DNA of 40,218 bases from Clostridiales bacterium (GTDB lineage: Bacteria; Bacillota_A; Clostridia; Oscillospirales; Oscillospiraceae): positions 1 to 40,218 of the forward strand of contig JAAVHY010000012.1 in the NCBI GenBank assembly GCA_014799485.1. Reading direction: 5' to 3'. Both the position numbers and the translations under genes were made by a program. Positions 4,189-27,785 of the stretch are shown here, in pieces (the stretch's first letter is position 1; the number at the start of each line of letters is the position of its first letter). The notes under the pieces are model-generated. The model ran no database searches, was not told where the DNA came from, and saw only the letters and a program-made list of their open reading frames with translations.

Positions 4189-5226
4189 ATGAAAAAGCTG
4201 GTTTCCCTGCTCCTGGCGTCCATGATGCTGTTCAGCCTGGCCGCCTGCGGAAGCAAAAACGATGACAAGCAGCCCAACGCCGGCTCCGGCGACGTGGCCA
4301 GCGACCCCAAGGTGACCCTGGTCTACGCCGAGGTCAACCCCGAGGACACCATCGTCGGCCAGACCGCCACCGAGTTCAAGCGCCTGGTGGAGGAGAAGTC
4401 CGGCGGCTCCATCACCATCGACGTGCGCTACAGCGGCGTGCTGGGCTCTGAGAACGACGTGCTGGACGCCATCATCGGCGGCGACGACTCCATCGACATG
4501 AGCCGTATCTCCGCTTTCGCCCTGACCAGCTACGGCGCCAAGAAGTCCATGCTGCTGTCCATCCCCTTCACCTTCGTCAGCCGTGAGCACTGGTGGAACT
4601 TCGCCAACAGCGACCTGGCCTCCGAGTTCCTCAACGAGCCCCAGGAGATCGGCCTGCCCCTGCGCGGCGTGTTCTACGGCGAGGAGGGCTTCCGTCATTT
4701 CTTTGCCAACAAGGCCATCAACAGCATCGACGACCTGCAGGGCATGAAGATCCGCGTGTCCAACGACCCCGTCATGAACGGCATGGTGGAGGGCCTGGGC
4801 GGTTCCCCCACGGTGGTGTCCTTCGGTGAGCTGTACTCCGCCCTGAACACCGGCGTGTGCGACGCCGCCGAGCAGCCTATCGCCAACTACAAGTCCAACG
4901 CCTTCAACGAGGTGGCCAATAACCTGATCCTGGACGGCCACACCCTGGGCGCCATCCAGTGCGTCATCACCGACACCGCCTGGGGCAAGCTGACCGCCGC
5001 CCAGCAGGCAGTTATCATGGAGGCCGGCAAGGAAGTCCAGAAGTTCAACCAGAACCTGTCCCAGGGCGCTGAGGACGAGGTGCTGGAGCAGCTGAAGGCC
5101 GAGGGCTGCAACGTGGTGGACGTCCCCGACAAGAAGCCCTGGCAGGACGCCTGCGCCAAGGTCATCAGCGAGAACACCTCCGACCAGGCCGACCTGTACC
5201 AGCAGCTGCTGGACATGGCTCCCTAA
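4189..5226 (+). CDS. dctP: TRAP transporter solute-binding lipoprotein (DctP family), predicted hexuronate
   Basis: The 345-residue protein starts at 4189 after CAAGGAGG. It has a lipoprotein signal with lipobox SLAAC at about residues 18-22. The mature part follows the DctP fold: an early YAEVNPEDTIVGQTATEFKR segment, the GVLGSENDVLDAI segment, then LQGMKIRVSN with the conserved substrate-carboxylate arginine in that stretch. Lipid-anchored binding proteins of this type deliver acidic sugars to the QM permease. Co-transcription with uxuA and uxuB points to glucuronate, galacturonate or a related hexuronate as ligand, which is inferred from context. A perfect hairpin follows the stop codon. 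Confidence 0.9.
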   Translation: MKKLVSLLLASMMLFSLAACGSKNDDKQPNAGSGDVASDPKVTLVYAEVNPEDTIVGQTATEFKRLVEEKSGGSITIDVRYSGVLGSENDVLDAIIGGDDSIDMSRISAFALTSYGAKKSMLLSIPFTFVSREHWWNFANSDLASEFLNEPQEIGLPLRGVFYGEEGFRHFFANKAINSIDDLQGMKIRVSNDPVMNGMVEGLGGSPTVVSFGELYSALNTGVCDAAEQPIANYKSNAFNEVANNLILDGHTLGAIQCVITDTAWGKLTAAQQAVIMEAGKEVQKFNQNLSQGAEDEVLEQLKAEGCNVVDVPDKKPWQDACAKVISENTSDQADLYQQLLDMAP

Positions 5227-5890: not shown

Positions 5891-7230
5891 TGGATGTTCA
5901 AACTCTCGCTATCATCGTCCTGCTGGGCACCTTTGCCCTTATGATCCTGCTGCGCTTCCCCATCGCCTACGCCGTGGGCCTGTCCTCCGTGCTCTGCCTG
6001 CTGACCATGGGCAACAGCCTCAGCGCCGTCTGCCGTCTGATGGTAAAGGGCATCAGCTCCTTCTCCCTGATGGCGGTGCCCTTCTTCATCACCATGGGCG
6101 TGCTCATGGGCAAGGGCGGCATCTCCGACAAGCTCATCGCCCTGGCCAACGCCTGCGTCGGCTGGATGCGGGGCGGCCTGGCCATGGTGAACATCGTGGC
6201 CTCCTACTTCTTCGGCGGCATCTCCGGCTCCGCCTCGGCGGACACCGCCTCCATCGGCTCCATCATGATCCCCATGATGGTGGACCAGGGGTACGACGCC
6301 GACTTCTCCACCGCCGTCACCATCACCTCCTCCTGCGAGGGCCTGCTGGTGCCTCCCAGCCATAACATGGTCATCTACGCCACCACGGCGGGCGGTATCT
6401 CCGTAGGCTCCCTGTTCCTGGCGGGCTACCTGCCCGGGGCCCTGCTGGCCCTGTCGCTGATGATCGGCTCCTACATCATCTCCGTCAAGCGCAACTACCC
6501 CAAGGGCGAGCCCTTCCACCCCATGAACTTCATCCGGCAGCTGGGCACCTCCATCTGGGCCCTGGCCGCCATCGTCATCGTGGTATACGGCGTGGTCGCC
6601 GGCGCCTTCACCGCCACTGAGTCCGCCGCCATCGCGGTCCTCTACTCCCTGGTCGTCTCCGTCTTCGTGTACAAGGGCGTGGACTGGAAGGGCGTGTGGA
6701 AGGCCCTGGACGAGTGCGTCAACACCCTGGCCATCGTGCTCATCCTCATCGCCACCTCCGCCGTGTTCGGCGACTGCCTCACCAAGCTCCACGTCCCCGA
6801 CCTGGCCGCCCAGGCCATCGTGGGCCTCACCGACAACCGGTATATCCTCATCATCCTGCTCAATGTCATCCTGCTGGTGCTGGGCATGATCATGGACATG
6901 GCCCCCATCATCCTCATCGCCACCCCCATCCTGCTGCCGGTAGCCACCCAGTACTGCGGGCTGGACCCCATCCAGTTCGGCATCATGGTGGTGCTCAACT
7001 GCGGCATCGGCCTGCTGACCCCGCCCGTGGGCGCGGTGCTGTTCATCGGCTCCGCCGTGGCCAAGCGGCCCATGGAAAAAGTGGTCAAGGCCACCCTGCC
7101 CTTCTATGTGTGTATGCTCATCACGCTGCTGCTGGTGTCCTATTGGCAGGACGTGACTCTGATCGTCCCCAAGCTGCTGGGCGGCTACAAGCCCGTTGCG
7201 GCCGGTCTGGCCAATGTTCTGTTGAGATAG
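5890..7230 (+). CDS. dctM: TRAP transporter large permease DctM
   Basis: The 446-residue protein has about twelve hydrophobic helices and classic DctM blocks: RFPIAYAVGLSS at the N-terminus, FFGGISGSASADTASIGSIM near residue 110, and GLLTPPVGAVLF near residue 375. It is the sodium-coupled translocating subunit. Its start overlaps the dctQ stop. A 12-base hairpin follows the gene before uxuA. Confidence 0.93.
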   Translation: MDVQTLAIIVLLGTFALMILLRFPIAYAVGLSSVLCLLTMGNSLSAVCRLMVKGISSFSLMAVPFFITMGVLMGKGGISDKLIALANACVGWMRGGLAMVNIVASYFFGGISGSASADTASIGSIMIPMMVDQGYDADFSTAVTITSSCEGLLVPPSHNMVIYATTAGGISVGSLFLAGYLPGALLALSLMIGSYIISVKRNYPKGEPFHPMNFIRQLGTSIWALAAIVIVVYGVVAGAFTATESAAIAVLYSLVVSVFVYKGVDWKGVWKALDECVNTLAIVLILIATSAVFGDCLTKLHVPDLAAQAIVGLTDNRYILIILLNVILLVLGMIMDMAPIILIATPILLPVATQYCGLDPIQFGIMVVLNCGIGLLTPPVGAVLFIGSAVAKRPMEKVVKATLPFYVCMLITLLLVSYWQDVTLIVPKLLGGYKPVAAGLANVLLR

Positions 7231-10780: not shown

Positions 10781-11134
10781 TTGTTTACCAAACAGGATCA
10801 GCGGTGGGTCTACCACCAGGATGCCCTGCCCCAGAGCGGCGGCCCGGGCGTCACCCGCCGGGTGCTGGCCTACAACAGCCAGCTCATGTGTGTGGAGAAT
10901 CAGTTCGAACAGGGGGCGGTGGGGGCGCTCCACAGCCACCCCCACACCCAGATCACCTACGTGGTCAGCGGACGGTTTTCCTTTACCATTGACGGGGAGA
11001 CCCACGAGGTAGGCCCGGGGGACACACTGCTGAAAACCGACGGCGTGGTCCACGGCTGCACCTGCCTGGAGGCGGGGACCCTGCTGGACATTTTCAACCC
11101 CATGCGGGAGGACTTCCTGCCGGGGCAAAAGTAA
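10781..11134 (+). CDS. Cupin domain protein, KdgF-like
   Basis: The 117-residue single-domain cupin starts at TTG 10781, placed by AGGAGG six bases before it. Metal-binding histidines lie in LHSHPHTQITYVVSGRF and in VVHGC. The C-terminus LLDIFNPMREDFLP resembles KdgF, which promotes ring opening of 4,5-unsaturated uronates released by pectin or alginate lyases. The location as last gene of a hexuronate operon supports this, but other small cupins look similar, so the call is tentative. A terminator follows 31 bases later. Confidence 0.7.
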   Translation: MFTKQDQRWVYHQDALPQSGGPGVTRRVLAYNSQLMCVENQFEQGAVGALHSHPHTQITYVVSGRFSFTIDGETHEVGPGDTLLKTDGVVHGCTCLEAGTLLDIFNPMREDFLPGQK

Positions 11135-11165
11135 CTGGCAGATTTTTGAGCCATTGCGTCAGAGT

Positions 11166-11197
11166 GCGGCCCCCGCCAAACCGGCGGGGGCCGCTTT
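11166..11197 (+). terminator. Rho-independent terminator of the TRAP/uxu operon
   Basis: A perfect 12-base GC-rich stem (GCGGCCCCCGCC / GGCGGGGGCCGC) with a five-base loop is followed by TTTATTAT. It closes the operon that begins at 4189. Confidence 0.85.
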
Positions 11198-11339
11198 ATT
11201 ATCCCCTATTTGAAAATTAGAGATTGAAAAAAGCGTTGAAGTGTGCGAAAATAGGCGTACGAAACACTATTGCGGCAGAGGCAAAGCCAGGCCGCCGAAG
11301 AACCTCCGTGATATATATTGTCAGATAGGAGTGCTGAAT

Positions 11340-12011
11340 ATGAGAAGATATTTGCTTGTGGTCGCCCATCCGGACGACGAACTGCTCGGTGCCGGAGCAA
11401 CCATGTGCAAAGCCGTGGAAAACGGGGATGAAGTGTATGTCTGCACACTTAGCCAGGACAGCGCCACCCGGGAGGACAACCTGGTCTCCCCCATGGTCTC
11501 CGGCTACCAGTCCATTGGCGTAAAGGACTACATGATCGGGAACTTCAAGTGCATCGGCTTCGGGAATGAAGACCACCAGGCCATGGTGGCGTTTATCGAA
11601 ACCGCTATCCGGAAGTTCCGCCCCACTGATGTCATTACGCACCACCCGGCCGACGTAAACTATGACCACTACATGACCTCCGCTGTCTGCCAGGAAGCCG
11701 TCAGGCTCCCCCAGCGGCAAATTGGCTACGATGAGAAGATCAAACGGTTCAGCTTCATGGAGGTGCTGAGCTCCACCAGCTTCTACCTCAATCCCTCCTG
11801 GCGGCCGTTTATGCCGAACTTTTACGTCTCCGTCAGCGATTCCCACCTCCAGAAGAAAATCGCCGCCCTTTCCTTGTATCAGGCGGTACTCCGGCCCGCC
11901 CCCTTCCCCCGGTGTGAACGGACCATCAAGGCCCTGGCAGCCGTCCGGGGGAGTGAGAGCGGCTTCGAGTACGCCGAAGCCTTCCAGACTGTTTTCTGCA
12001 TTGAGGAGTAA
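11340..12011 (+). CDS. PIG-L family deacetylase
   Basis: The 223-residue protein begins MRRYLLVVAHPDDE, and AHPDDE at residues 9-14 is the zinc/catalytic motif of the GlcNAc-PI de-N-acetylase family (LmbE-like). A second metal-ligand block, THHPADVNYDHY, lies near residue 99. Such enzymes remove N-acetyl groups from sugars or sugar conjugates, and the substrate here is unknown. ATG 11340 follows TAGGAGTGCTGAAT. The gene stands alone between two operons, and I see no convincing promoter or terminator of its own. It is somewhat less GC-rich than its neighbours at the 5' end. Confidence 0.88.
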   Translation: MRRYLLVVAHPDDELLGAGATMCKAVENGDEVYVCTLSQDSATREDNLVSPMVSGYQSIGVKDYMIGNFKCIGFGNEDHQAMVAFIETAIRKFRPTDVITHHPADVNYDHYMTSAVCQEAVRLPQRQIGYDEKIKRFSFMEVLSSTSFYLNPSWRPFMPNFYVSVSDSHLQKKIAALSLYQAVLRPAPFPRCERTIKALAAVRGSESGFEYAEAFQTVFCIEE

Positions 12012-12105
12012 CGGGCAAGCGGAGGCTGAAAATGTACTTACTCCCCTTGTTGATGAAGACGCCGGACGGTCTGTCTGCCCGGTGAGAAACAAATTGAAAA
12101 ACTGC

Positions 12106-12134
12106 TTGCAATTTATAAGCCGTCAAGGTATACT
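12106..12134 (+). promoter_or_regulatory. Sigma-A promoter of the phosphorelay operon
   Basis: TTGCAA (12106-12111) and TATACT (12129-12134) are separated by 17 bases. Transcription would begin near 12141, leaving a leader of about 220 bases before the kinase gene. Confidence 0.65.
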
Positions 12135-12186
12135 GGAAATAAGTGCATTAGGGGGATTTTGTCACTATGCCCGCAGCAGTATGGCG

Positions 12187-12257
12187 CGGCACCATACTTA
12201 CTATATAAAAATGGTGCCGATATTTTTTAGGGGCAAGGCGCGCACCGGGCCCCTTTT
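12187..12257 (+). promoter_or_regulatory. Leader with two terminator-like hairpins
   Basis: The first hairpin pairs CGGCACCAT (12187-12195) with ATGGTGCCG (12211-12219) and is followed by ATATTTTTT. The second pairs GGGGC (12230-12234) with GCCCC (12249-12253) and is followed by TTTT. Both lie inside the untranslated leader of the kinase operon, so they could form an attenuator. I recognise no known riboswitch consensus. The rest of 12012-12362 shows only the promoter. Confidence 0.5.
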
Positions 12258-12362
12258 GCATCGCTTCCCCAGAAAACGGCATGGGATATCACTCCCTTGG
12301 CAGAGGCTCGTGAACGCACCTTTGCCGGTGTCCGCGAATTTGGATGTATGAGGGCGATTGGA

Positions 12363-15344
12363 ATGGCAGGGAAGGTCAAGAAAAATCAACGGGCATGGCT
12401 GGTGCTTCTCATTGTGGCATGTCTGGGCGCGATCCTGATCGGCGGGATCTATTATGTCACGGCGCTGCGCGGCGGCCTGGCCGACCAGGCCGTCCAGAAC
12501 GTCCTGACCGTGACCCTCCAGCAGCAGCAGGCCTTTGACAATTTCATTTCCCAGGATCAGGAGCGTCTGCACAGCTTTGCCGAGTTTTTTTCCCGCAACG
12601 AGCACGGGGGCGCGGAGGAGGTCTGCCGGCAGCTGACGATATTTGATGAGGTGGACGCGATCTATTCGGTGATCTGCCTGGATGAAGGCTGGTTCTGCAG
12701 CAACGCGTCCGATAAGATCCGTCAGCTGGACGAGGAAAACCTGGCGTTTTATAACTCTTTAAGCGGCAGCGGCGTCCGGGATACCTATATCGGGCTGTTC
12801 ACCGGCGATCCAAAGTTCGGTTATTACGAAACCTTCAACTTCGCCAACGGGCATCGGGGCCTGATCCAGAAGAGCTATAACCGCACCAAAGTATCCGAGA
12901 CCTTTTCCCTCTCCTTTTACAACGACCAGGGGTTTGCCTATGTCGTGAATGGGGATGGGGACATCCTGCTCCGATCGGCGGGCATGATCGGCGACCATTT
13001 ATATGACAACATCCTCGATGTGCTCACCGGGACCCACGGCAAGCAGGAGGATGCGGACATCCTGACGGCGGCGCTGGCCACCGACCAGGTGGGCAGCCAT
13101 GTGTTCACCGGGAATATGGGCTCTTTCGTCTATACTTACGTCCCCGTGGAGAATGTGGAAGAGTGGTTCCTGGTCTCCATCGTGCCCATGTCCGCCATTA
13201 CGGAGGAGGCGGACGAGATCCTCCTGGACTCCCAGGTGGCGCTGCTGCTTTTGACCGCGATCCTGGCGGTGTGCGCCGTGTTCATGATGCTGATCTGGCG
13301 CACCAATAAGGACCTGGCGGAAAAGGACCGCGCCATTGAATACCGGGAGCGGCTTTTTGACATCCTGTCCACCCACCTGTCCAGCAACACGGACGACGTG
13401 TACATGATGGTGGACGCCCTGGACGGCAAGGCAGAATACGTCAGCCCCAATGTGGAGCGCGTACTGGGCATTTCGGAACAGAGCATCACGGCCTCCTTAA
13501 GCGCCCTCGGGACCCCCCTGCAATCCTCCGGCGATCCGGTGGATTACCAGACACTGCGGGAAATGACGCCGGGCGAGGCGCTGGAGAGCATCCAGACCGA
13601 GCGGGTCAACCCCAAAACCGGGGAGCACAAATGGTTCCAGGAGCGCCTGTACTGCACTCTGATGCAGGACCGGCGCAAGATCATCGTCTACATCTCCGAC
13701 CGCACGGAGGACCTGCAGACCCGCAACACCCTGACCGAAGCGCTGCAAATGGCCCAGGTGGCCAACGAGGCGAAAAGCTCCTTCCTGAGCAGCGTCAGCC
13801 ACGACATCCGCACCCCCATGAACGCCATCATCGGGTTTGTCTCCCTGCTCAAGGCGGACGCGGGCGACCCGGAGCTGGTACTGGAGTACACCCAGCGGAT
13901 CGACGCCGCCAGCCAGCACCTGCTGGGGCTGATCAACGACGTGCTGGACATGAATAAAATCGAGAGCGGGAACACCACGCTGAACATCGCCAACGTTGAC
14001 CTGGCCGATATCATCGATGAGATCAACACCATCATCCGCCCCCAGGCCAAGGCGAAGGACCAGACGTTTGACATCACCGTCTCCTCGCTGGTTTACGAAC
14101 ACCTCATGGGGGATAAGCTGCGTCTCAACCAGATCCTGATCAACCTGCTGTCCAACGCGGTGAAATACACCCAGGAGGGCGGCCGGATCGAGTTCCGGAT
14201 CGAGGAGCTCCCCCAGGTCGTGAAGGACTACAGCCGGGTCCGCTTCATCGTCAGCGACAACGGCCTGGGCATGAGCGAGGAATACCTGAAGGTCATCTTC
14301 GACCCCTTTACCCGGGAGGACAGCGCGTCCACCCGCCAGATCCAGGGCACCGGCCTGGGCATGGCCATCACCAAGAGTCTGGTGGATCTCATGGGCGGAA
14401 CCATCCGGGTGGACAGCGCGCTGGACAAGGGGAGCACCTTCACGGTGGAGCTGGAGCTGCGCATCCAGGAGCGGGAGGACGTGGATCCCAAGTTCTGGGC
14501 GGAGCACCACGTGGGCAGGATGATCGTGGCCGACGACGACGAGGACGCCTGCCGGAACGTGGTCCGGGCCATGAGGGATACCGGGGTCATGACGGATTAC
14601 TCCACCGATGGGGCCACGGCCATCCAAATGATGCGGGAGGCCCGGGAGGCGGGACGGCCCTACGACCTGATCCTGCTGGACTGGAAGATGCCGAACCTGG
14701 ACGGGTTGGAGACCGCCCGGCTTATCCGGAAGAATTACCCCGAAAAGATCCCCATCCTGCTGGTCACCGCCTACGATTGGGGGGACATCGAGCAGGAGGC
14801 CATCGAGATCGGCGTGAGCCACTTCATGCCGAAGCCCTTCTTTATGAGCACCTTCAAAGACGCCATCCGGCGGGTCATGGGCCGGACGGCCCAGCAGGTC
14901 GTTGAAAAGACCAGCATCGTGAAGGGGAAACAGATCCTGGTGGTGGATGATATCGAGGTCAACCAGATCATCCTGGTCAAGATCCTCACCAGCCTGGGGG
15001 CCGCCTGCGACGTAGCGGGGAACGGACAGCTGGCGGCGGAGAAATTCGAAAGCGCCCCGCCGGGGACCTATGATCTGATCCTGATGGACGTGCAGATGCC
15101 GGTGATGGACGGCTATGAGGCCACCCGGACCATCCGGGCCGGCAGCCACCCCGAGGCGCGGACCATCCCCATCATCGCCATGACCGCCAACGCTTTCGTG
15201 GACGATGTGCGGGACGCCATCAGCTCCGGGATGGACGCCCACGTGGCCAAGCCGGTGCAGGTCGACAAGCTGGAAGCCGCCATCCGGCAGGTTCTTCAGA
15301 GCCGGAAGGAAAAGGAACTGACAGCCGGACAAGAAAGGAGTTAA
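12363..15344 (+). CDS. Membrane-bound hybrid histidine kinase with tandem receiver domains
   Basis: The protein has about 993 residues. Membrane helix 1 (about 11-33) and helix 2 (about 291-312) flank a large extracellular sensor of the Cache type. A PAS-like domain follows (about 335-450). HisKA carries SVSHDIRTPMNAI with phospho-His480. The ATPase domain has NAVKYTQEGG, DNGLGMS and GTGLGMAI. Two receivers have acceptor Asp773 (LLDWKMP) and Asp909 (LMDVQMP). The protein probably senses an extracellular ligand and passes phosphate to the neighbouring HPt and receiver proteins. ATG 12363 is preferred (GAGGGCGATTGGA before it), and ATG 12348 is also possible. From the PAS domain onward it is clearly paralogous to the kinase at 17993. 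Confidence 0.92.
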   Translation: MAGKVKKNQRAWLVLLIVACLGAILIGGIYYVTALRGGLADQAVQNVLTVTLQQQQAFDNFISQDQERLHSFAEFFSRNEHGGAEEVCRQLTIFDEVDAIYSVICLDEGWFCSNASDKIRQLDEENLAFYNSLSGSGVRDTYIGLFTGDPKFGYYETFNFANGHRGLIQKSYNRTKVSETFSLSFYNDQGFAYVVNGDGDILLRSAGMIGDHLYDNILDVLTGTHGKQEDADILTAALATDQVGSHVFTGNMGSFVYTYVPVENVEEWFLVSIVPMSAITEEADEILLDSQVALLLLTAILAVCAVFMMLIWRTNKDLAEKDRAIEYRERLFDILSTHLSSNTDDVYMMVDALDGKAEYVSPNVERVLGISEQSITASLSALGTPLQSSGDPVDYQTLREMTPGEALESIQTERVNPKTGEHKWFQERLYCTLMQDRRKIIVYISDRTEDLQTRNTLTEALQMAQVANEAKSSFLSSVSHDIRTPMNAIIGFVSLLKADAGDPELVLEYTQRIDAASQHLLGLINDVLDMNKIESGNTTLNIANVDLADIIDEINTIIRPQAKAKDQTFDITVSSLVYEHLMGDKLRLNQILINLLSNAVKYTQEGGRIEFRIEELPQVVKDYSRVRFIVSDNGLGMSEEYLKVIFDPFTREDSASTRQIQGTGLGMAITKSLVDLMGGTIRVDSALDKGSTFTVELELRIQEREDVDPKFWAEHHVGRMIVADDDEDACRNVVRAMRDTGVMTDYSTDGATAIQMMREAREAGRPYDLILLDWKMPNLDGLETARLIRKNYPEKIPILLVTAYDWGDIEQEAIEIGVSHFMPKPFFMSTFKDAIRRVMGRTAQQVVEKTSIVKGKQILVVDDIEVNQIILVKILTSLGAACDVAGNGQLAAEKFESAPPGTYDLILMDVQMPVMDGYEATRTIRAGSHPEARTIPIIAMTANAFVDDVRDAISSGMDAHVAKPVQVDKLEAAIRQVLQSRKEKELTAGQERS

Positions 15345-20900: not shown

Positions 20901-21142
20901 TGATCATAATGGACATCCAGATGCCTCGGCTGGATGGGCACCAGGCCGCCCGCGCCATCCGGGCCAGCGCCCACCCATCGGCCCAGACGATCCCTATCAT
21001 CGCCATGACGGCCAACGCCTATGTGGACGATATCCGGGACGCCTTGGACGCGGGGATGGACGCGCATCTTCCAAAGCCCATCGTGCTGGATCAGCTGAAG
21101 CGCACCATCCAGGAAGTGATGGAACGCAGGGGCGTCCGCTGA
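17993..21142 (+). CDS. Cytosolic multi-PAS hybrid histidine kinase with tandem receivers
   Basis: The protein has about 1049 residues and no membrane helix. The first 105 residues look like a receiver-like fold without an acceptor aspartate (ADVILAGL). Three PAS-type domains follow at about 130-245, 255-375 and 395-515. HisKA carries NVSHDIRTPMNAI with His544. The ATPase domain has DNGQGMS and STGLGMAI. Receivers have Asp836 (LLDWKMP) and Asp974 (IMDIQMP). ATG 17993 is chosen because AGGTGG lies eight bases before it, and a GTG at 17981 has no such site. From the third PAS domain on it parallels the kinase at 12363, so one arose by duplication. It ends the signalling operon. Confidence 0.9.
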   Translation: MYHCHIQIYLVNVQRGICELLKAMPPLAHFTHDFLESERPEKALLAQADVILAGLQGTDAGELPRLLSEGKKAGAELILLAGREQVRAALDAAPEARDIWPLPMEEEELRFRFLRWQQGCRLGRDHWQANQFLNAVIDSSPNLIWFKDKDGIHEKVNDSFCRTVNKSKEQVQGRRHGYIWDVEEEGSVCVESEFEVMDRRETCVFHETIQTGDGERLLTTYKSPLYDLDGSVMGTVGVAVDVTRERAYERELLEKNRALEMLFSTTDCGVMCHSLDGTQIISINHAALALLGYSSLEELVDDGFKLVAQSVLDEDKPKLRECIASLKKEGDSLSTEYRVRHKDGVIRNILGNIKLVERNGELFCQRFLLDITDQKQEEEERWAEKDRELRYQEQLFDIFSTFLSDNVDDIYMMMDGTGHNVEFVSPNIERVLGVSVKALLNDAWAIGHAEYITGYEVGSEGLSALEPGMALEPMETKRVHQKTGEEKWFHESVYCVSVQGAKKIIVYISDRTQERTTQNALSEALKMAQAANKAKSAFLSNVSHDIRTPMNAIMGFITLLREEADDPKCVREYTKKLSAASQHLLGLISDVLDMTKLESGSAVLNISDLNIAEIIEELNVIIRPQARAKGQTFDIVTASLTREHLLGDRMRINQILINILSNAVKYTQDGGKIRLSVEELPQVDPSYSRLRFTISDNGQGMSKEYQQILFEPFTREQSTAWNQLQSTGLGMAITKSLVDIMNGTIKVDSTLGEGSTFVVELELRVQAQEDDPEFWKQCGIGRMLITDDDEDICREVVKKMSGTGVLTEYATNGAQTIELLQNAREAGRPYDLILLDWKMPDLDGLATARLIRRNDPDAIPILLFTAYDWSDVESAAAEVGVNQFLSKPFFLSNFKEVIQRMKDLERQKASANKWDGIVDGKRVLVVDDIDVNRMILTKILGTMGAVCDTAVDGQEALEKFQRSDPGEYDLIIMDIQMPRLDGHQAARAIRASAHPSAQTIPIIAMTANAYVDDIRDALDAGMDAHLPKPIVLDQLKRTIQEVMERRGVR

Positions 21143-21181
21143 CTTTAGGCCCTTTCGGACGGCAGTAACCGCGATAAACGC

Positions 21182-21218
21182 AAAAGAAGCACCCCACAGT
21201 ATGTGGGGTGCTTCTTTT
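21182..21218. terminator. Bidirectional terminator between kinase and helicase genes
   Basis: A perfect 15-base stem (AAAAGAAGCACCCCA / TGGGGTGCTTCTTTT) with a seven-base loop has T-rich ends on both strands. It can end both the plus-strand kinase operon and the minus-strand helicase operon. The remaining bases to 21423 show no gene. Confidence 0.85.
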
Positions 21219-21423
21219 GTGCTTTTGATGGGCATTCTCGGACAAAAAGCGGGCATACCGTAATATTTCGCGGCGATAGAGGACATTCCGATATCCTCAG
21301 GCCCGTATCTCAGCAAAAAATAGTCCAATCTGGATTTCACCCACTTGGTCAAAATAGTTCCACTCTAAGCCGCCCGGGCCCGACAAGCGCCCAAAAATAT
21401 GGAACGATCCAGCACTATATAAG

Positions 21424-23664
21424 TCACGGCAGCACGGCGGCTTCCCAGCTCAAAACCGTTTCCCGAAGCCCGTCCAGATCCAGCACGCCGTAGGCGAAGC
21501 CCTTCTTCACCAGCTCGTCCGGGAGGAATTCGTCGTACTTGTCGAACAGGGGCAGCTCCTTGGCGTAGACCAGCTCCAGCGGGTCGATGGGCTTGCGGAT
21601 CTCCTCGGATACCACCTGGAAAAACGTCCGCTCGTCCGCCTTCATGGTGAACTGCATATAGTAGGGCCGGGCGGAGTCGAAATTCCGCATCCCCAGGCGG
21701 TCAGCGCATTTGACCTTCAAAAACCGCTCCAGGGCGAGAAAGGCGTAGGTCCCCACCCAGGGCAGCAGGCACCACATATTGCCCCCCAGGTTGAGCAGGG
21801 GCTTTTCGACGGTGCCGGAGCGGCTGGCCGTGAACCGGGCGTTTTCCAGGCGGGCCACCGCGTTTTTCATCAGGTAGGGGTACTGCTTTTCCTCCCGCAA
21901 AACCTGCCGCATCTTTTGCAGGATTTTCGTATGCAGGTCCCCGGGGCACAGCCCGAAATAGGCCGGGATGCTGCCCTTTACCTGCTCGCAGTACACCAGA
22001 TGGCGCTTGCGGTCGATGTCCAGCACCACCCAGACGTGGCCCGCGATGGCCAGCTTCTCCCCCACCGGGGGCGGCAGCACCACCGTGCCCAGCTCCTGGG
22101 CCTCGCTGCGGACGGTGTACTCCTCGTTCTCCTGGAACACGCCGTAGAACTTGTAGGAGTTTACCACCCGCTCCCCGGCCAGGCCCACGATCAGGCCGCC
22201 CTGCTCGGTACGCTGGATGTGGTCGGTTTGGATGAGGTGGCGCAGCAGCGCCTTGTAGTCCTCCTGAGAGATGCGGTGGAAATAGCGCAGCCGCAGCACC
22301 TGGTCCGCCAGGGCGCGGGGGGACAGCTCCCCGCAGGAGGCCAGGGTGGACATGGTCTGGTGGTACAGCAGGCTGTAGGGCAGGCGGTCCAGCCGGGGGG
22401 GCTCCACCCAGCGCTCCTCCAAATAGAGCTGCACCAGCGCGATGCCCTGGATCAACGTCCAGGGGATAGTGGCGGGCAGCATGGCCCGGGCCTCCGGCTC
22501 GTCCTCCCGCATGACGAACCACATCTCCGGCGGCAGCTCCCGCCGCCCGGTGCGGCCCATGCGCTGGAGGAAGGAGGACACCGTCCAGGGCGCGTCGATC
22601 TGGAACGCCCGCTCCAGCCGCCCGATGTCGATGCCCAGCTCCAAGGTGGCGGTGGTAACGGTGGACATCCGCTGGGACTCGTCCTTCATCACCTCCTCCG
22701 CCGTCTCCCGGTAGGAGGCGGACAGGTTGCCGTGGTGAATGAGGAAGCGGTCCGGCTCATGGGCCCGCTCGCAGTACTGCCGCAGGGTGGTGGTGACCGT
22801 CTCGCACTCCTCCCGGGAGTTGACGAACACCAGGCACTTCTTGCCCCGGGTGTGCTCGAAAATATAGCCCAGGCCGGGGTCGGCGTTGTCGGGGGCCTGG
22901 TCGGTTTTTTCGTCCAGCACCGGCAGGGCGTCGATGTCCGTCCGTCCCTCCCCGGCCTGTACGTCCTTCACATAGAAGTGCTCCATGCTTAGCCGCCATT
23001 TGGCCCCCTTGGCCTCGATTTTGGGGATGATGGTGCCCCGCCCGGTATCCAGGGCCAGGAACTCCCCTGTCTTTTCCGGCTCGCCCATGGTGGCGGACAG
23101 GCCGATGCGCCGGGGGGTGACCCCCGCCAGCCGGGACAGCCGCTCGATGAGGCACAGGGTCTGCCCGCCCCGGTCCCCACGCAGGAGGGAGTGGACCTCG
23201 TCGATGACCACAAACCGCAGGTCGCCGAACAGGTGGGGGATGGCCGCGTGCTTGTGGAGCAGCATGGCTTCCAGCGATTCCGGGGTGATCTGGAGGATGC
23301 CGGAGGGGTGCTTCATCAGCCTGTCCTTGTGGCTTTGGGCCACGTCGCCGTGCCAGTGCCAGACGTGGATATCCGCCTCTTCGCACAGGTCATTGAGCCG
23401 GGAAAACTGGTCGTTGATAAGGGCCTTCAGCGGGCCGATGTAGAGACAGCCCACCGAGGACGGCGGGTTTTCGGAAAACAGGGTGATGATGGGGAAGAAC
23501 GCCGCCTCCGTCTTGCCGGAGGCGGTGGAGGCCGTCAGCAGTACGTGCTCGTCCGTATTGAAAATGGCCTGGGCGGCGGCCACCTGGATGGCACGCAGGC
23601 TTTCCCAGCCGTTGCGGTAGATGTACTCCTGCACGAAGGGGGCGTAGCGGTCAAAGATGCTCAT
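21424..23664 (-). CDS. DEAD/DEAH-box helicase of a Shango-like defence cassette
   Basis: The 746-residue SF2 helicase has motif I TASTASGKTEAAF (44-56), motif II DEVH (155-158), motif III SATM (190-193) and motif VI QRMGRTGR. The long C-terminal part is as in Lhr/BrxHI-like helicases. ATG 23664 follows AAGGAGG, and an ATG six codons upstream lies before that site and is rejected. Together with the TerB and ATPase genes it matches the composition of the Shango anti-phage system (TerB, ATPase, helicase). It presumably acts on invading DNA. It ends at a bidirectional terminator. An unrelated VOC gene separates it from the ATPase gene. Confidence 0.9.
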   Translation of the reverse strand: MSIFDRYAPFVQEYIYRNGWESLRAIQVAAAQAIFNTDEHVLLTASTASGKTEAAFFPIITLFSENPPSSVGCLYIGPLKALINDQFSRLNDLCEEADIHVWHWHGDVAQSHKDRLMKHPSGILQITPESLEAMLLHKHAAIPHLFGDLRFVVIDEVHSLLRGDRGGQTLCLIERLSRLAGVTPRRIGLSATMGEPEKTGEFLALDTGRGTIIPKIEAKGAKWRLSMEHFYVKDVQAGEGRTDIDALPVLDEKTDQAPDNADPGLGYIFEHTRGKKCLVFVNSREECETVTTTLRQYCERAHEPDRFLIHHGNLSASYRETAEEVMKDESQRMSTVTTATLELGIDIGRLERAFQIDAPWTVSSFLQRMGRTGRRELPPEMWFVMREDEPEARAMLPATIPWTLIQGIALVQLYLEERWVEPPRLDRLPYSLLYHQTMSTLASCGELSPRALADQVLRLRYFHRISQEDYKALLRHLIQTDHIQRTEQGGLIVGLAGERVVNSYKFYGVFQENEEYTVRSEAQELGTVVLPPPVGEKLAIAGHVWVVLDIDRKRHLVYCEQVKGSIPAYFGLCPGDLHTKILQKMRQVLREEKQYPYLMKNAVARLENARFTASRSGTVEKPLLNLGGNMWCLLPWVGTYAFLALERFLKVKCADRLGMRNFDSARPYYMQFTMKADERTFFQVVSEEIRKPIDPLELVYAKELPLFDKYDEFLPDELVKKGFAYGVLDLDGLRETVLSWEAAVLP

Positions 23665-23703
23665 GGGGCGCCTCCTTAACATAATCTTTCGATAAGTTGA
23701 TAT

Positions 23704-24126
23704 TTACCGCTCTGTCTGCTCTGTCATAATTCCCCAGCGAATCCCAAATTTATCAACAAAAACGACTCGGCAGGAACTATACGGCGTCGCTCCTATTTCA
23801 TATATTGTCTTGCTTCCTTCCTTCATGATTTCATATGCCCGTTGGACTTCCTCTTTCGTATCGAGCATAACGGTAAGGAAGTTAGAATAACACGTTTGAA
23901 ATTCAATATCCACATGGTCGCTCATAATAATTCTTTGGCCGGCCAACACAAGCTCCGAATGATATATATACCCTTTTTGATTTTCTTTGAGCAATGGATT
24001 ATATTCGGGGTCATCTGCTTCCCCATATGTGATGAGACAGCTGATTTTTCCATGAAATGCCTTTTCATACAGATGAATTGCTTCCCGGCAATTTCCTCCA
24101 AAATTTAGCGTAGGCACAATTTGCAC
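23704..24126 (-). CDS. VOC family protein, PhnB-like (insert in the TerB-ATPase-helicase operon)
   Basis: The 140-residue protein begins with IVPTLNFGGNCREAIHLYEKAF, the hallmark of PhnB-like members of the glyoxalase/VOC superfamily, and ends with DKFGIRWGIM. Catalytic function is unknown, and such proteins are often annotated as glyoxalase or resistance proteins. It starts at GTG 24126 behind AAAGGAGG. By hand count it is only about 41% G+C, far below its neighbours. The gap before it is AT-rich too, suggesting later insertion into the operon. It is complete, with its own ribosome binding site. Confidence 0.87.
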   Translation of the reverse strand: MQIVPTLNFGGNCREAIHLYEKAFHGKISCLITYGEADDPEYNPLLKENQKGYIYHSELVLAGQRIIMSDHVDIEFQTCYSNFLTVMLDTKEEVQRAYEIMKEGSKTIYEIGATPYSSCRVVFVDKFGIRWGIMTEQTER

Positions 24127-24172
24127 TTTTGATCCTCCTTTCCGCCAATTAAAATTTTTCCCTCTGTGCTAC

Positions 24173-25486
24173 TCACAGCTCAAATTCCGCGAACTGCTCC
24201 TGGGTGGACGCCTCCTGCACCGCGTTTTGGGCGTAGGTAAAGTCCTCGCTGCCCAGCAGCTCCCGCACCTTCACGTCCGGGTTTTGGTACACGATGTCCA
24301 GCACCTCAATAAAGTCCCGGATGACCTCCCGGGGGGTGATGTGGGCGTCCGCGCCGATGCGGCCAAACTCGATCTCGATGAAGTCCGCCATGTCCTGCTG
24401 GGTGACGATCTGGGGGTACTCGTACAGCCCCGCGTGGATGTCCGCCAGCTTTTCCACCAGGATCAGCATCTCCTCCGGGGTGAGGGGCTGGAGCCGGATC
24501 ACCGGGGACAGCAGGTCCTTGTGCGTCCCGGAAAAGCGCCCCTCCGCCAGCCGGGAGCGCAGGGCCTCATAGCTGTAGACCCCCCGGCGGGGGTCCTCCA
24601 TGCACTGGGGCGTGCCGCACAGAATAATACCCAGGTGCTGGGCCTTGCCTTGCATGGTGTCATTGTACATGGTGAGGATTTTTTCGTAGTTATACTGCCG
24701 GGTGATGGCGTTGGGGATCTTGTAGATGTTCACCAGCTCGTCAATGAGGATGAGCATACCGGCGTAATTCGCCTGCTTTAAGAAACAGGCGAAGAGCTTG
24801 AGATATTCGTACCAGTCGTCGTCGGTGATGACGATATTGACCCCCAGCTCCTGCCGGGCCTCGGTCTTGGTGGCGTATTCCCCCCGGAACCATTTCAGCA
24901 CCTTGGCCTTCGTCTCGTCGTCCCCGGAGAGGTGGGCCCGGTAGTAAAGGGTGAGCAGACGGGCGAAGTCAAAGCCGTGGACCATCTCGCTTAGCGAGCC
25001 GATGACGGCGGAAATCTCTTTCTCCACCAGCGGGGCCAGCCCCGGGTCGGTGATACCCAGGCCGGAGGAGGCCACGACCTCCTGCTGCACGCCGCTGATC
25101 CAGCGGTCCAGGATCAGGGACAGCGCGCCGCCCTCGGGCTTTGTCTTGGTGGACATGTTGCGGATGAGCTCCTTGTAGGTGGCCAGCCCCTGGCCCCGGG
25201 TGCCCTGGAGCCGGCGCTCCGGGGAGAGGTCGGCGTCCACCACCACGAAATCCTTGGCCATCACGTAATTTCGGATGGTCTGGAGCAAAAAGCTCTTGCC
25301 GCTGCCGTACTTGCCCACGATGAAGCGGAAGGACGCGCCGCCGTCGGCGATGATGTCCACATCGTGGAGCAGGGCGTCGATCTCGGCCTTCCGGCCCACG
25401 GTGACATAGGGCAGGCCAACCCGGGGCACAACGCCGCCCTTCAGGGAGTTCATCAATGTCTGGGCGATCCGTCTGGGTATTTTCAT
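24173..25486 (-). CDS. P-loop ATPase (BrxC/BrxD/DUF2791-like) of a Shango-like defence cassette
   Basis: The 437-residue protein has Walker A GKYGSGKS at 58-65 and Walker B LILIDE at 245-250. PRRIAQTLMNSLKGGVVPR at the N-terminus is typical of ATP-binding proteins of BREX-like and TerB-linked loci. It also has an ILCGTPQ sensor-like strand near residue 307. It overlaps the TerB gene by four bases (ATGA), so the two are translationally coupled and probably form a complex. The presence of a helicase gene in the same operon supports a DNA-directed role. Its exact activity is not known from sequence. Confidence 0.88.
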   Translation of the reverse strand: MKIPRRIAQTLMNSLKGGVVPRVGLPYVTVGRKAEIDALLHDVDIIADGGASFRFIVGKYGSGKSFLLQTIRNYVMAKDFVVVDADLSPERRLQGTRGQGLATYKELIRNMSTKTKPEGGALSLILDRWISGVQQEVVASSGLGITDPGLAPLVEKEISAVIGSLSEMVHGFDFARLLTLYYRAHLSGDDETKAKVLKWFRGEYATKTEARQELGVNIVITDDDWYEYLKLFACFLKQANYAGMLILIDELVNIYKIPNAITRQYNYEKILTMYNDTMQGKAQHLGIILCGTPQCMEDPRRGVYSYEALRSRLAEGRFSGTHKDLLSPVIRLQPLTPEEMLILVEKLADIHAGLYEYPQIVTQQDMADFIEIEFGRIGADAHITPREVIRDFIEVLDIVYQNPDVKVRELLGSEDFTYAQNAVQEASTQEQFAEFEL

Positions 25487-26976
25487 GGGTACACCATCTC
25501 TTTCAAATCATCGATATAGTCCTCAATCAGCCGGGGCGTATCGTCCAGGACGCAGTCCAGGAAAGTGTCGTACAGCTTTTCGTTGACGCCGTCCACCAGG
25601 ACGGACAGCAGATGCCCCTCCGCCTGCACCCAGCCGGTGTCCCCGCCGTACAGCAGGCATTGCAGCAGGCGGTATTCCGGGGGGCTCAGGGGGGTGTCGC
25701 CCTCCTGGCCGGCAGACGGCGCGGCCGGGGCGGGCGCCTCCTGGGGCGGGGCCAGCAGGGAAAACTGCTCCGGCTCCTGTTCCTGGGGGGTGGGCTCTTC
25801 CGGAACGTCCATCTCCTCGTCCACAATCAGCTTTTCCCGGGTAATGGCGGCGTCCTGGCGGATTTTGGTGAGCTGTCCGTAGTCGATGGTAACCTTCTTC
25901 TCTTCGGCGGCCTTTTTCTCCGCCAAAAGCCCCAGGACTTCCTCCTGGATGAGCCGCAGGGTCCACTTGGTGTCCACCTCTGCCTTGACCGGGTGGCGGT
26001 AGCCCCATTCCTGGCGCATGACGGAATCAACGGTTTTCAGCAGTCCGTCCAGCTTGGCGCTGGGGCTTTGGGAGCCGGCGCGCTTCCAGACGGACCAGAG
26101 GCCGTTTTCGCAGGAGTAGATATACTGCTCGTCCACCACGTACTCGTAATTTTTTCGTTTCAGCGGGTTGCAAAAGACGGCGGATTCAAACGGGCGGGCC
26201 GGGCACCGGCCGAGGCCGCCAAAATACTGCTCCACCATGGTCTTTTTGCACCGGGCGGCATAGTGGGCCGACGCCCGCCGCAGTACCCGGACGATCACCG
26301 TGTCCATGTCCTGCCGGTACGCCGCGTAGAACTTGGAGCGCCCCAGCCATTTGGAGACCTGCCGTACCGCGCCCACCACCGTGGCCTCGTCCCGCTCCTG
26401 GACGTGTTCCAGCACGGCGGCGCTCCGGCCGAGGACCACCTGGGAGTCGCCGGCCAAAAGCGCCCGGTCCAGCCCGTAATAGACCACGTAATCCGTGAGC
26501 CATTGGCCCAGGTACGAAAGGATGCCGCGGTCGATCGGGCCGTAGGCGTCCCGGAACTCAACCAGCCGGCGGTATCCGTCCATGGGGTCTACCACGCCGA
26601 TCTGGTTGATGAGCTCGTAAATATAGAGGAACGCGAAGGACAGCGAGGTCTCGCGGACGTCCCCGTGGCGCAGCTTTGTCCGCCAGGAGAAGTAGCCGCG
26701 CAGCTGCCGGTCCGTCAGGGACTGGTAGGTGGGATAGTAGCAGGTGACGCTGCCGCGGTAGTCGTAATCGTCCTCGTAGCCTGCCAACAGCTTCCCCTGC
26801 TTCATAAAGACAACTTCCCGGGACTGCCATCTCTGATGGGCCCCGTTTTCCAGGGAACGGGCGGCACGGATGACCGAGGGGACGCGCTCGGCAGCTTGGG
26901 CGGCCCTTGGCCGGATCGCCTCCTCCCGGAACACGGTGCCGCGGAGCCATTCCGCGGCGGCTTTCCTCGGGTCCAT
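25483..26976 (-). CDS. TerB-N/TerB-C domain protein of a Shango-like defence cassette
   Basis: The 497-residue protein fits the TerB N-terminal plus TerB C-terminal architecture. The N-terminal region has YYPTYQSLTDRQLRGYFSWR and ETSLSFAFLYIYELINQIGV. A central region holds RCPARPFESAVFCNP. A proline- and glutamate-rich linker lies near residue 380, and a C-terminal helical domain ends DDLKEMVYP. ATG 26976 follows GAGGGGGTGG, and a longer upstream reading would run through the promoter. TerB-like proteins are linked to stress response and phage defence. This gene heads the operon and is probably the sensing or scaffold part. Confidence 0.85.
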   Translation of the reverse strand: MDPRKAAAEWLRGTVFREEAIRPRAAQAAERVPSVIRAARSLENGAHQRWQSREVVFMKQGKLLAGYEDDYDYRGSVTCYYPTYQSLTDRQLRGYFSWRTKLRHGDVRETSLSFAFLYIYELINQIGVVDPMDGYRRLVEFRDAYGPIDRGILSYLGQWLTDYVVYYGLDRALLAGDSQVVLGRSAAVLEHVQERDEATVVGAVRQVSKWLGRSKFYAAYRQDMDTVIVRVLRRASAHYAARCKKTMVEQYFGGLGRCPARPFESAVFCNPLKRKNYEYVVDEQYIYSCENGLWSVWKRAGSQSPSAKLDGLLKTVDSVMRQEWGYRHPVKAEVDTKWTLRLIQEEVLGLLAEKKAAEEKKVTIDYGQLTKIRQDAAITREKLIVDEEMDVPEEPTPQEQEPEQFSLLAPPQEAPAPAAPSAGQEGDTPLSPPEYRLLQCLLYGGDTGWVQAEGHLLSVLVDGVNEKLYDTFLDCVLDDTPRLIEDYIDDLKEMVYP

Positions 26977-27015
26977 ATCCGTTCCACCCCCTCTTTCGTT
27001 CAAATGTTCGGTATC

Positions 27016-27044
27016 ATTATAGAGCATTGGGAACCGGCAGTCAA
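27016..27044 (-). promoter_or_regulatory. Sigma-A promoter of the TerB-ATPase-VOC-helicase operon
   Basis: On the minus strand TTGACT (27039-27044) and TATAAT (27016-27021) are spaced by 17 bases and lie 40 bases before the TerB ATG. It is a strong consensus-like promoter, so the cassette is probably expressed constitutively. Confidence 0.8.
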
Positions 27045-27058
27045 GGGAACAAAACGGG

Positions 27059-27106
27059 AAAGCATCGAGGTCAGGGCCCCAGGGGCGCCCTGACCTCGAT
27101 GCTTTT
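27059..27106. terminator. Long-stem terminator between the flavoprotein gene and the TerB operon
   Basis: A 19-base perfect stem (27059-27077 with 27087-27105) is flanked by T6 on the plus side and CTTTCCCGTTTT on the minus side. It ends the minus-strand TRAP operon and insulates the TerB promoter. Confidence 0.8.
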
Positions 27107-27137
27107 TTCTCTACTGTATCGCGTGCCCTTTCATCGG

Positions 27138-27785
27138 TCAAACCTTGTAATAAGACGGCTTTTCCGCTTCCCGGACGAAGCTTGTGCGGGTCCGGTTGGC
27201 ATATTGCGGGGCGGGGATGTTGGAGGCGTCAATGCACTTCAGCATCCACGCCATATTTTTGCCCAGAACGCCCAAGACCTCAAGGCCCTCTTTATCCTCC
27301 TGCTGCTCCTCAGGGACAAACCCGTGGAGCATGGGCCAGTAGCTGGAGGAGACGATGTGCATCATGGTGTTGGTGAAATACAGGTTCAGCCGGTTGAGCG
27401 TGGCGGTGGCCCCCGCCCGGCGCAGGGTAGTGACCGAGGCGCCCAGTTTGTGGTGGAGCTTTTCGTTGATGGGGTAAAAGGCCCGGTCCAGGAAGGCGGT
27501 GAAGGCGCCGTTCGGCCCGCCAAAGTAGCAGGGCGCGCCCAAGATGACCCCGTCGGCGGCCAAAAGCTTTTCACTGCACTCGCTCACCCGGTCTTTGATC
27601 ACGCAGGGGCTTCCCGGGTGGGTTTTGCAGTACATACATCCGGTACAGCCCTGAACAGGGCCGGAACCGATGTGAAAGATCTCCGTTTCGATCCCCTCTT
27701 CGATCAGCGCGTCTTCCACGATACGCAGCGCGTGAAAGGTGCTGCCGTTTTTATGGGGGCTGCCGTTGATGAGCAAAACTTTCAT
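27138..27785 (-). CDS. Iron-sulfur flavoprotein-like NAD(P)H/FMN oxidoreductase
   Basis: The 215-residue protein has the flavodoxin-like start VLLINGSPHKNGST, which forms the FMN phosphate loop. A compact cysteine motif CTGCMYCKTHPGSPC (CX2CX2CX7C, about residues 47-61) resembles the [4Fe-4S] site of archaeal and clostridial Isf proteins. GAPCYFGGPNGAFTAFLDR near residue 83 binds the flavin. It sits at the end of the Gfo/Idh-TRAP operon, 15 bases after dctP. The electron partner is unknown. TAGGAGCGGG precedes its ATG. Confidence 0.85.
   Translation of the reverse strand: MKVLLINGSPHKNGSTFHALRIVEDALIEEGIETEIFHIGSGPVQGCTGCMYCKTHPGSPCVIKDRVSECSEKLLAADGVILGAPCYFGGPNGAFTAFLDRAFYPINEKLHHKLGASVTTLRRAGATATLNRLNLYFTNTMMHIVSSSYWPMLHGFVPEEQQEDKEGLEVLGVLGKNMAWMLKCIDASNIPAPQYANRTRTSFVREAEKPSYYKV

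Follow-up and report, generated by a model that had tools for sequence, protein, structure and literature searches.

The 40,218-nt contig of a Clostridiales bacterium (Oscillospiraceae; GenBank assembly GCA_014799485.1, contig JAAVHY010000012.1), hereafter called the window, carries at positions 21,424–26,976 the genes of the phage-defence system Shango. We consider it likely that this locus is a complete Shango system, mobile as a unit of about 5.6 kb, whose junction between the ATPase gene sngB and the helicase gene sngC is a cargo slot in which genes are swapped in place. Unrelated genes occupy this junction in relatives whose sngB and sngC can be aligned, and the flanks of the slot resemble one another in most of the loci that have one. 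The features concerned are:

25483..26976, minus strand: sngA, TerB_N/TerB_C protein of 497 amino acids (PADLOC SngA, E = 2.5e-62; Pfam TerB_N, TerB_C)
24173..25486, minus strand: sngB, BrxC/BrxD-type ATPase of 437 amino acids (PADLOC SngB, E = 1.2e-191; Pfam BrxC_BrxD, E = 4.3e-172)
23665..24172, minus strand: variable cargo slot, from the sngB stop to the sngC start (flank alignments; unaligned block in 10/10 pairs of five relatives)
23704..24126, minus strand: cargo gene with GTG start, VOC/PhnB-family (YjdN-like) protein of 140 amino acids (PF06983, E = 5e-8)
21424..23664, minus strand: sngC, DEAD/DEAH (BrxHI-like) superfamily 2 helicase of 746 amino acids (PADLOC SngC, E = 5.8e-278; Pfam DEAD, Helicase_C)

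The operon and the gene within it

The assignment to Shango rests on the PADLOC protein models, all three of which (3/3) were matched over nearly their full length: residues 29–494 of SngA align with positions 64–526 of a profile of 528, SngB covers profile positions 5–439 of 439 and SngC positions 5–716 of 720. In SngA, the Pfam matches to TerB_N (1.7e-29) and TerB_C (2.7e-17) were both over cut-off. An original prediction, made from the sequence alone, had read the locus as a trio of TerB protein, ATPase and helicase matching Shango and had suggested the Shango models as a check; with the PADLOC models run, both the trio and the reading are supported. The motifs on which it drew are present in SngB (GKYGSGKS at residue 58, LILIDE at 245) and SngC (ASGKT at 48, DEVH at 155, SATM at 190, QRMGRTGR at 367), as is the 4-nt overlap (ATGA) of sngA and sngB. 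What did not stand is the contiguity of a three-gene operon: the genes follow the order sngA-sngB-sngC, all on the minus strand, with one added co-directional gene, the VOC gene, splitting sngB from sngC. We place the start of sngC at 23664 rather than at 23682, because the homologues examined begin at the equivalent of 23664. Judged by its sequence, the locus is a member of Shango in every feature examined.

The VOC protein also resembles the NCBIfam YjdN model (E = 2.9e-10), with a score that falls short of that model's cut-off. The G+C content at third codon positions of its gene is 0.40 versus 0.84–0.91 in the sng genes and 0.79–0.84 in three neighbouring genes, and the ratio of nonsynonymous to synonymous substitution rates (dN/dS) to two relatives is 0.05 and 0.07 at dS >1, a third comparison being saturated. 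Taken together, the low third-position G+C content and the low dN/dS therefore suggest that the VOC gene is recently acquired and functional. Its homologues are numerous (641 at E ≤ 1e-20, 120 being listed at 76–90% identity). Among class-level genomes, close relatives occur in 2 of 391, where the similarity is confined to about the gene itself and, by eye, no Shango gene is seen among the neighbouring open reading frames (ORFs); the family-level genomes yielded matches in 4 of 200, at 32–40% identity only. In locus L131, a VOC gene lying away from Shango has, 5' of position 9115 (minus strand), a 17-nt flank stretch, AATAAATCGGGATTTAC, that recurs in the slot flank of L008 (10312–10360), a likeness that may be due to chance.

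The slot and its contents

Searching GTDB genome contigs with SngB returned 455 relatives; the analysis covers the best 80 loci. Across 78 of these (the stretches of L007 and L029 lack sngC), the gap between sngB and sngC was ≤30 nt in 55 loci, 31–150 nt in 4 and >150 nt in 19; between sngA and sngB, a gap of >150 nt was found in 1 of 80. Some of the long sngB-sngC gaps contain repeat-like or other DNA (L021, L023, L027, L030 and L054, by eye), and that of L033 measures 8.4 kb. The gap of L054 also includes a short element (4247–4441) whose inverted ends match by eye, as in a miniature inverted-repeat transposable element. In the clade of the window we count 11 slot loci, namely L001–L006, L008, L009 and L013, which are contigs of metagenome-assembled genomes (MAGs), plus L106 and the window. 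The G+C content of their inserts is 0.40–0.50 versus 0.60–0.66 in sngB/sngC, and most inserts are bordered by recognisably similar sequence, on one side next to the sngB stop and on the other ahead of the ribosome-binding site of sngC. The slot of L009 holds a remnant only, and the other ten loci hold 13 intact genes, all in operon direction; in L001 there is a longer antisense ORF too, but the sense ORF has 171 homologues. Besides the VOC gene, the slots contain the following cargos:

L004, L006, L013 and cargo 4 of L005: GNAT proteins (Pfam)
L005: Peptidase_S51 and NUDIX proteins (Pfam)
L106: PNPOx protein (Pfam)
L001, L002, L003, L008 and cargo 2 of L005: genes without Pfam match

No pair among the 13 intact cargos has detectable DNA similarity, and the proteins gave one match, of L005 cargo 4 with the L006 cargo (34%). 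A second, more distant lineage, comprising L058 (10371–14766) and L074 (10360–11860), has small genes arrayed in the sngB-sngC gap; the order of two cargos in L058 is the reverse of that in L074, and several genes of the L058 array are absent from L074. After sngC, this lineage has a VOC gene resembling that of the window (79% over 66 amino acids and 85% over 96 amino acids, cut by the contig end).

Apparent replacement at one site comes into view among close relatives. SngB is present in 6 of 42 genus-level genomes, and in five of them (G001, G002, G003, G004 and G212, the sixth being G006) Shango appears to occupy one shared site: the upstream side is common to G001, G002 and G212, and sequence further downstream is common to G002, G003, G004 and G212. 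The contigs of G003 and G004 start within sngA, and G001 is unaligned with the others past a Zn-ribbon gene in the stretch examined. This Zn-ribbon gene, located downstream of sngC (L001:9877–10323), is found in exactly these five of the 42 genomes and may travel with Shango. In 10/10 pairs of the five genomes, both flanking segments, on the sngB and the sngC side, align at 89–94%, and the slot (377–677 nt) is unaligned. Other unaligned blocks are downstream stretches of 3603 versus 1483 or 1647 nt in four pairs, and indels of 66–115 nt; between G002 and G212, aligned over ~17.5 kb, alignment fails over at least 60 nt at two places only, the slot and an 84-nt indel. We propose that the cargo can be replaced, probably serially, without disturbance of sngB or sngC.

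An alternative explanation would be that the VOC gene was inserted once by chance, and that ordinary indel noise or misassembly of MAGs accounts for the variety seen in relatives. The slot loci are indeed largely MAG contigs, and elsewhere the gap sometimes consists of repeat-like DNA (L023, L027, L030 and L054, by eye). However, the G002–G212 alignment, the similar flanks in most of the 11 slot loci and the near absence of inserts between sngA and sngB are difficult to reconcile with it, and the remnants in L005 (see below) are unlike a simple assembly chimera, since they have diverged from the intact sequences. We therefore regard this explanation as very improbable.

As for the role of the cargos, the default view is that they are passengers. 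Alternatively, they could be accessory components of Shango, interchangeable modules altering its specificity, toxicity or counter-defence. This would be in line with the orientation of the cargos, 13/13 of which, as read, run with the operon, with the purifying selection on the VOC family and with the published trend, in the accessible text of PMC12629846, for defences to be embedded in other defence operons. Moreover, the AlphaFold model of the L002 cargo (predicted local distance difference test score 93) is similar to 6u08, the DddA immunity protein (Foldseek probability 1.00, E = 3.8e-3, template modelling score 0.73 by target); the immunity-protein-like fold is suggestive only, because no Foldseek match reached E 0.001. 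For the L001 cargo, the model was of moderate confidence and without a meaningful PDB match. Speaking against an accessory role, PADLOC gave zero matches for the VOC protein of the window and 10 cargos (nine from relatives in its clade, L005 being represented by cargo 2, and one from L058), the known cargo families are common ones (GNAT, NUDIX, VOC, PNPOx), close homologues of the VOC protein are found away from Shango, and 55 of the 78 loci manage with a gap of ≤30 nt. On balance, we judge an accessory role rather unlikely.

Expression of the cargos would depend on the following element upstream of sngA:

27016..27044, minus strand: sngA promoter, TTGACT-17-TATAAT (11/12 consensus positions)

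This promoter had been predicted at 27044–27016 and is borne out, being conserved among the 12 relatives examined (TTGAC in 12/12, TATAAT in 11/12; L011 has TATGAT). A scan for promoter-like sites on the minus strand within the sngB-sngC slot found none, and the small, low-GC cargos, held in operon orientation, would probably be co-transcribed from the sngA promoter. The leader from the -10 box to sngA (CCGAACATTTGAACGAAAG; 26976–27044 of the window, and relatives) is unusually conserved and includes a direct repeat, GAAC-N4-GAAC, perhaps an operator. The terminators once proposed on both sides of the operon turned out to be weak: a single 20-pair hairpin at 21179–21221 was called on the plus strand, and none upstream. 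In the scan of 21100–27400, no minus-strand terminator lay outside genes, and terminator-like sites in the region were not above shuffles (4 versus a mean of 6.2). A palindrome at ~27060–27111, upstream of the promoter, received no terminator score and was not seen in the 12 relatives examined.

Probable movement of the operon and proposed exchange of its cargo

Among the closest relatives, the parts that resemble the window at DNA level are the promoter-sngA-sngB block and sngC, with similarity ending near 27045–27061, that is, about at the sngA promoter, and near 21444; the stretches of L003 and L004 start inside sngA, and L007 adds ~70% matches to the histidine-kinase region. When ten neighbouring proteins of the window were searched against the 80 loci (tblastn, E ≤ 1e-20), matches were obtained for two signalling proteins only, the histidine kinase and another multidomain protein similar to it (28–44% identity, 4 loci); at least 1.5 kb beyond Shango was available on one side in 75 of the 80 loci and on both sides in 48. 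A conserved core-genome position, named in the original prediction as speaking against defence, was thus not seen. These boundaries are in line with the notion that Shango moves as a discrete unit of ~5.6 kb among gut Oscillospiraceae and relatives. The genes near Shango in the window are concerned with sugar metabolism, TRAP (tripartite ATP-independent periplasmic) transport and signalling. A defence island around it is not supported, as PADLOC revealed no clear defence gene in 20 flanking proteins, with two weak matches (E = 3.1e-7 and 4.4e-6) among the ten proteins to the left and zero among the ten to the right. Viral contigs contained no relatives of Shango or VOC, phage records no SngB, and every SngB match on plasmids was <60% identical. 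Such SngB-like ATPases (<60% identity) occur in 690 plasmid records (449 from Klebsiella, 144 from Salmonella), 542 of them predicted to be conjugative.

We envisage that, after capture of a cargo, homologous recombination between Shango copies would swap it, the arms being provided by sngB, sngC and the flanks of the slot. The sngC genes of L106 and L001 differ at 19 positions in the first 200 nt versus 5.9 expected from the far sites (39/1400; P = 1.5e-5), and two further pairs point in the same direction (L003–L004, P = 0.006; L106–L002, P = 0.01). On a tree of SngB plus SngC with 36 rows (10 slot loci and 26 others, some with other inserts, namely L021, L023, L027 and L030), the slot label is clustered, with 0/500 shuffles scoring as low.

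Several observations weigh against mobility of the unit and in-place exchange of its cargo. On the same tree, the slot loci do not form a single clade: the label needs 4 changes, at least 3 of them forced by well-supported branches, and therefore slots have been lost, gained by recombination, or both. A slot-side excess of differences is missing in L001–L002 (P = 0.14), the window and L004 (0.13) and L008–L013 (0.98); the six pairs were picked after seeing the data and their P values are uncorrected, with that of L106–L001 multiplied by 45 possible pairs still being <0.001. When slot-side divergence was regressed on far divergence across 45 pairs, the 200 nt of sngC next to the slot did not stand out (slope 0.72, versus 0.51–1.58 in the remaining 200-nt segments of sngC), and the lowest slope (0.47) was that of the last 200 nt of sngB. 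Because the pair tests disagree and the regression does not single out the slot side, the evidence for import of cargo together with adjacent sngC sequence is mixed and would support it in one or a few lineages only. Furthermore, the 5' flank of L004 and the last 3' flank of L005 are not recognisably conserved, the fused remnants of L005 described below were picked up at 1 of 80 loci (the pattern scan overlooks sites that have diverged), most slot loci stem from MAGs and the cargos tested gave no PADLOC match. A clean empty site was obtained neither for the window, whose neighbours have no close relative in 400 family genomes (best match 64% over ~1 kb), nor for the G001-type locus, where the upstream gene is present at 71–73% in four genomes without SngB matches and the downstream block was not found beside it in the stretches examined.

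L005 is unusual in carrying four cargos and two junctions (6190–6360 and 6985–7130) in which ~30 nt of an sngC start are fused to ~27 nt of an sngB end. By eye, the breakpoints of the two match, and the sequences have diverged from intact sngB and sngC; such junctions would be expected from integration of circles or from tandem duplication. L007 has a gene for a large serine recombinase (11088–12629; Resolvase, Recombinase and Zn_ribbon_recom domains) directly behind sngB in the slot, and sngC was not found up to the contig end (L108). These loci bring into play a dedicated site-specific cassette system, in which a recombinase would integrate and excise circular single-gene cassettes with an attachment site in the manner of integrons. 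Besides the repeated fused breakpoint in L005 and the recombinase in L007, the similarity of flanks between different cargos, the opposite order of cargos in L058/L074 and the 17 nt that the VOC flank of L131 has, perhaps by chance, in common with the L008 slot flank would fit such a system. Against it, a recombinase sits in the slot at 1 locus, and the integron integrase model TIGR02249 scored over cut-off in 0/11 genomes of relatives (sub-cut-off matches were seen in 11/11, as well as in 13/14 control genomes). Spacings between sngB and sngC in the L058/L074 arrays range from -13 to 75 nt, which is short for attC sites; as no integrase exceeded the cut-off and the spacings are short, an integron is unlikely. 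A genome-wide recombination motif fared no better: a search of 9 genomes for the 3'-flank motif gave 8 sites, of which 5 lie at Shango and 3 in other places, and the reversed control pattern gave 3. We consider a dedicated cassette system improbable. Terminal inverted repeats around the cargo were likewise sought and discarded, since pairwise checks gave short or gapped matches only (best score 19, L013). Somewhat more conceivable, and tentatively put forward here, is a selected cassette dock, with Shango units exchanging single-gene modules at a fixed position, possibly via circles with a fused sngC-start/sngB-end site as in L005; the operon would then carry genes for adaptation or immunity without the help of an integrase, or would be retuned by cargo swaps. 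Exchange of passenger cargo between Shango copies remains the reading we favour.

Relation to known systems

Shango of Pseudomonas aeruginosa PA14 has the same gene order as the operon of the window and, introduced into PAO1, caused a modest, 10- to 100-fold reduction in plating of many, though not all, phages (PMC10250203, accessible text). Unlike PA14-type Shango, the window operon has a foreign gene between sngB and sngC, and it is a lone unit amid metabolic, transport and signalling genes, not part of a defence hotspot. The next-best PADLOC relatives of SngB and SngC are BrxD (4.1e-48) and BrxHI (1.8e-123) of type 2 bacteriophage exclusion (BREX), a linked ATPase-helicase dyad whose ATPase has been proposed, in the accessible text of PMC12839542, to load or activate the helicase. 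Because this pair represents the closest relatives and a loader role was proposed there, a similar mechanism of defence seems likely by analogy: SngB, an AAA+ ATPase, would load or activate the SngC helicase on invading DNA, and the TerB protein SngA might act as sensor or adaptor. The literature searched yielded no mechanistic study of Shango. SngB reaches 163 bits where a BrxD cut-off is 350. Unlike type 2 BREX, the window has a TerB protein instead, with the ATPase-helicase dyad split by cargo, and PADLOC found zero matches to BrxC, PglX, PglZ and PglW among 24 window proteins.

By tolerating gene replacement between the ATPase and helicase genes, a lineage such as this one reveals the junction at which Shango is permissive, and it offers natural variants for asking whether linked genes modulate Shango. 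Integron cassettes are small, low-GC, co-directional genes accommodated at one site, singly or in arrays. The slot may be likened to them in that its GNAT, NUDIX and VOC genes are small, low in GC, co-directional, and single or arrayed; unlike integrons, it has short spacings, lies inside a defence operon and is unaccompanied by an integrase over cut-off in the 11 genomes.

The cargo slot is the novelty here. It varies an established pattern, in which genes lie embedded within a defence operon, for example PrrC in type I restriction-modification loci (PMC12629846, accessible text). In both cases, a variable gene lies between core genes of a defence operon; unlike the embedded defence genes, the slot cargos tested lack a PADLOC match, and the carrier system is Shango. 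We found no description of a cargo slot in Shango in the literature searched, which took in few subscription papers or preprints. More broadly, the slot suggests that cargo can be exchanged within a defence operon even where no integron integrase is involved, and small genes for adaptation or immunity may spread between gut bacteria by this route.

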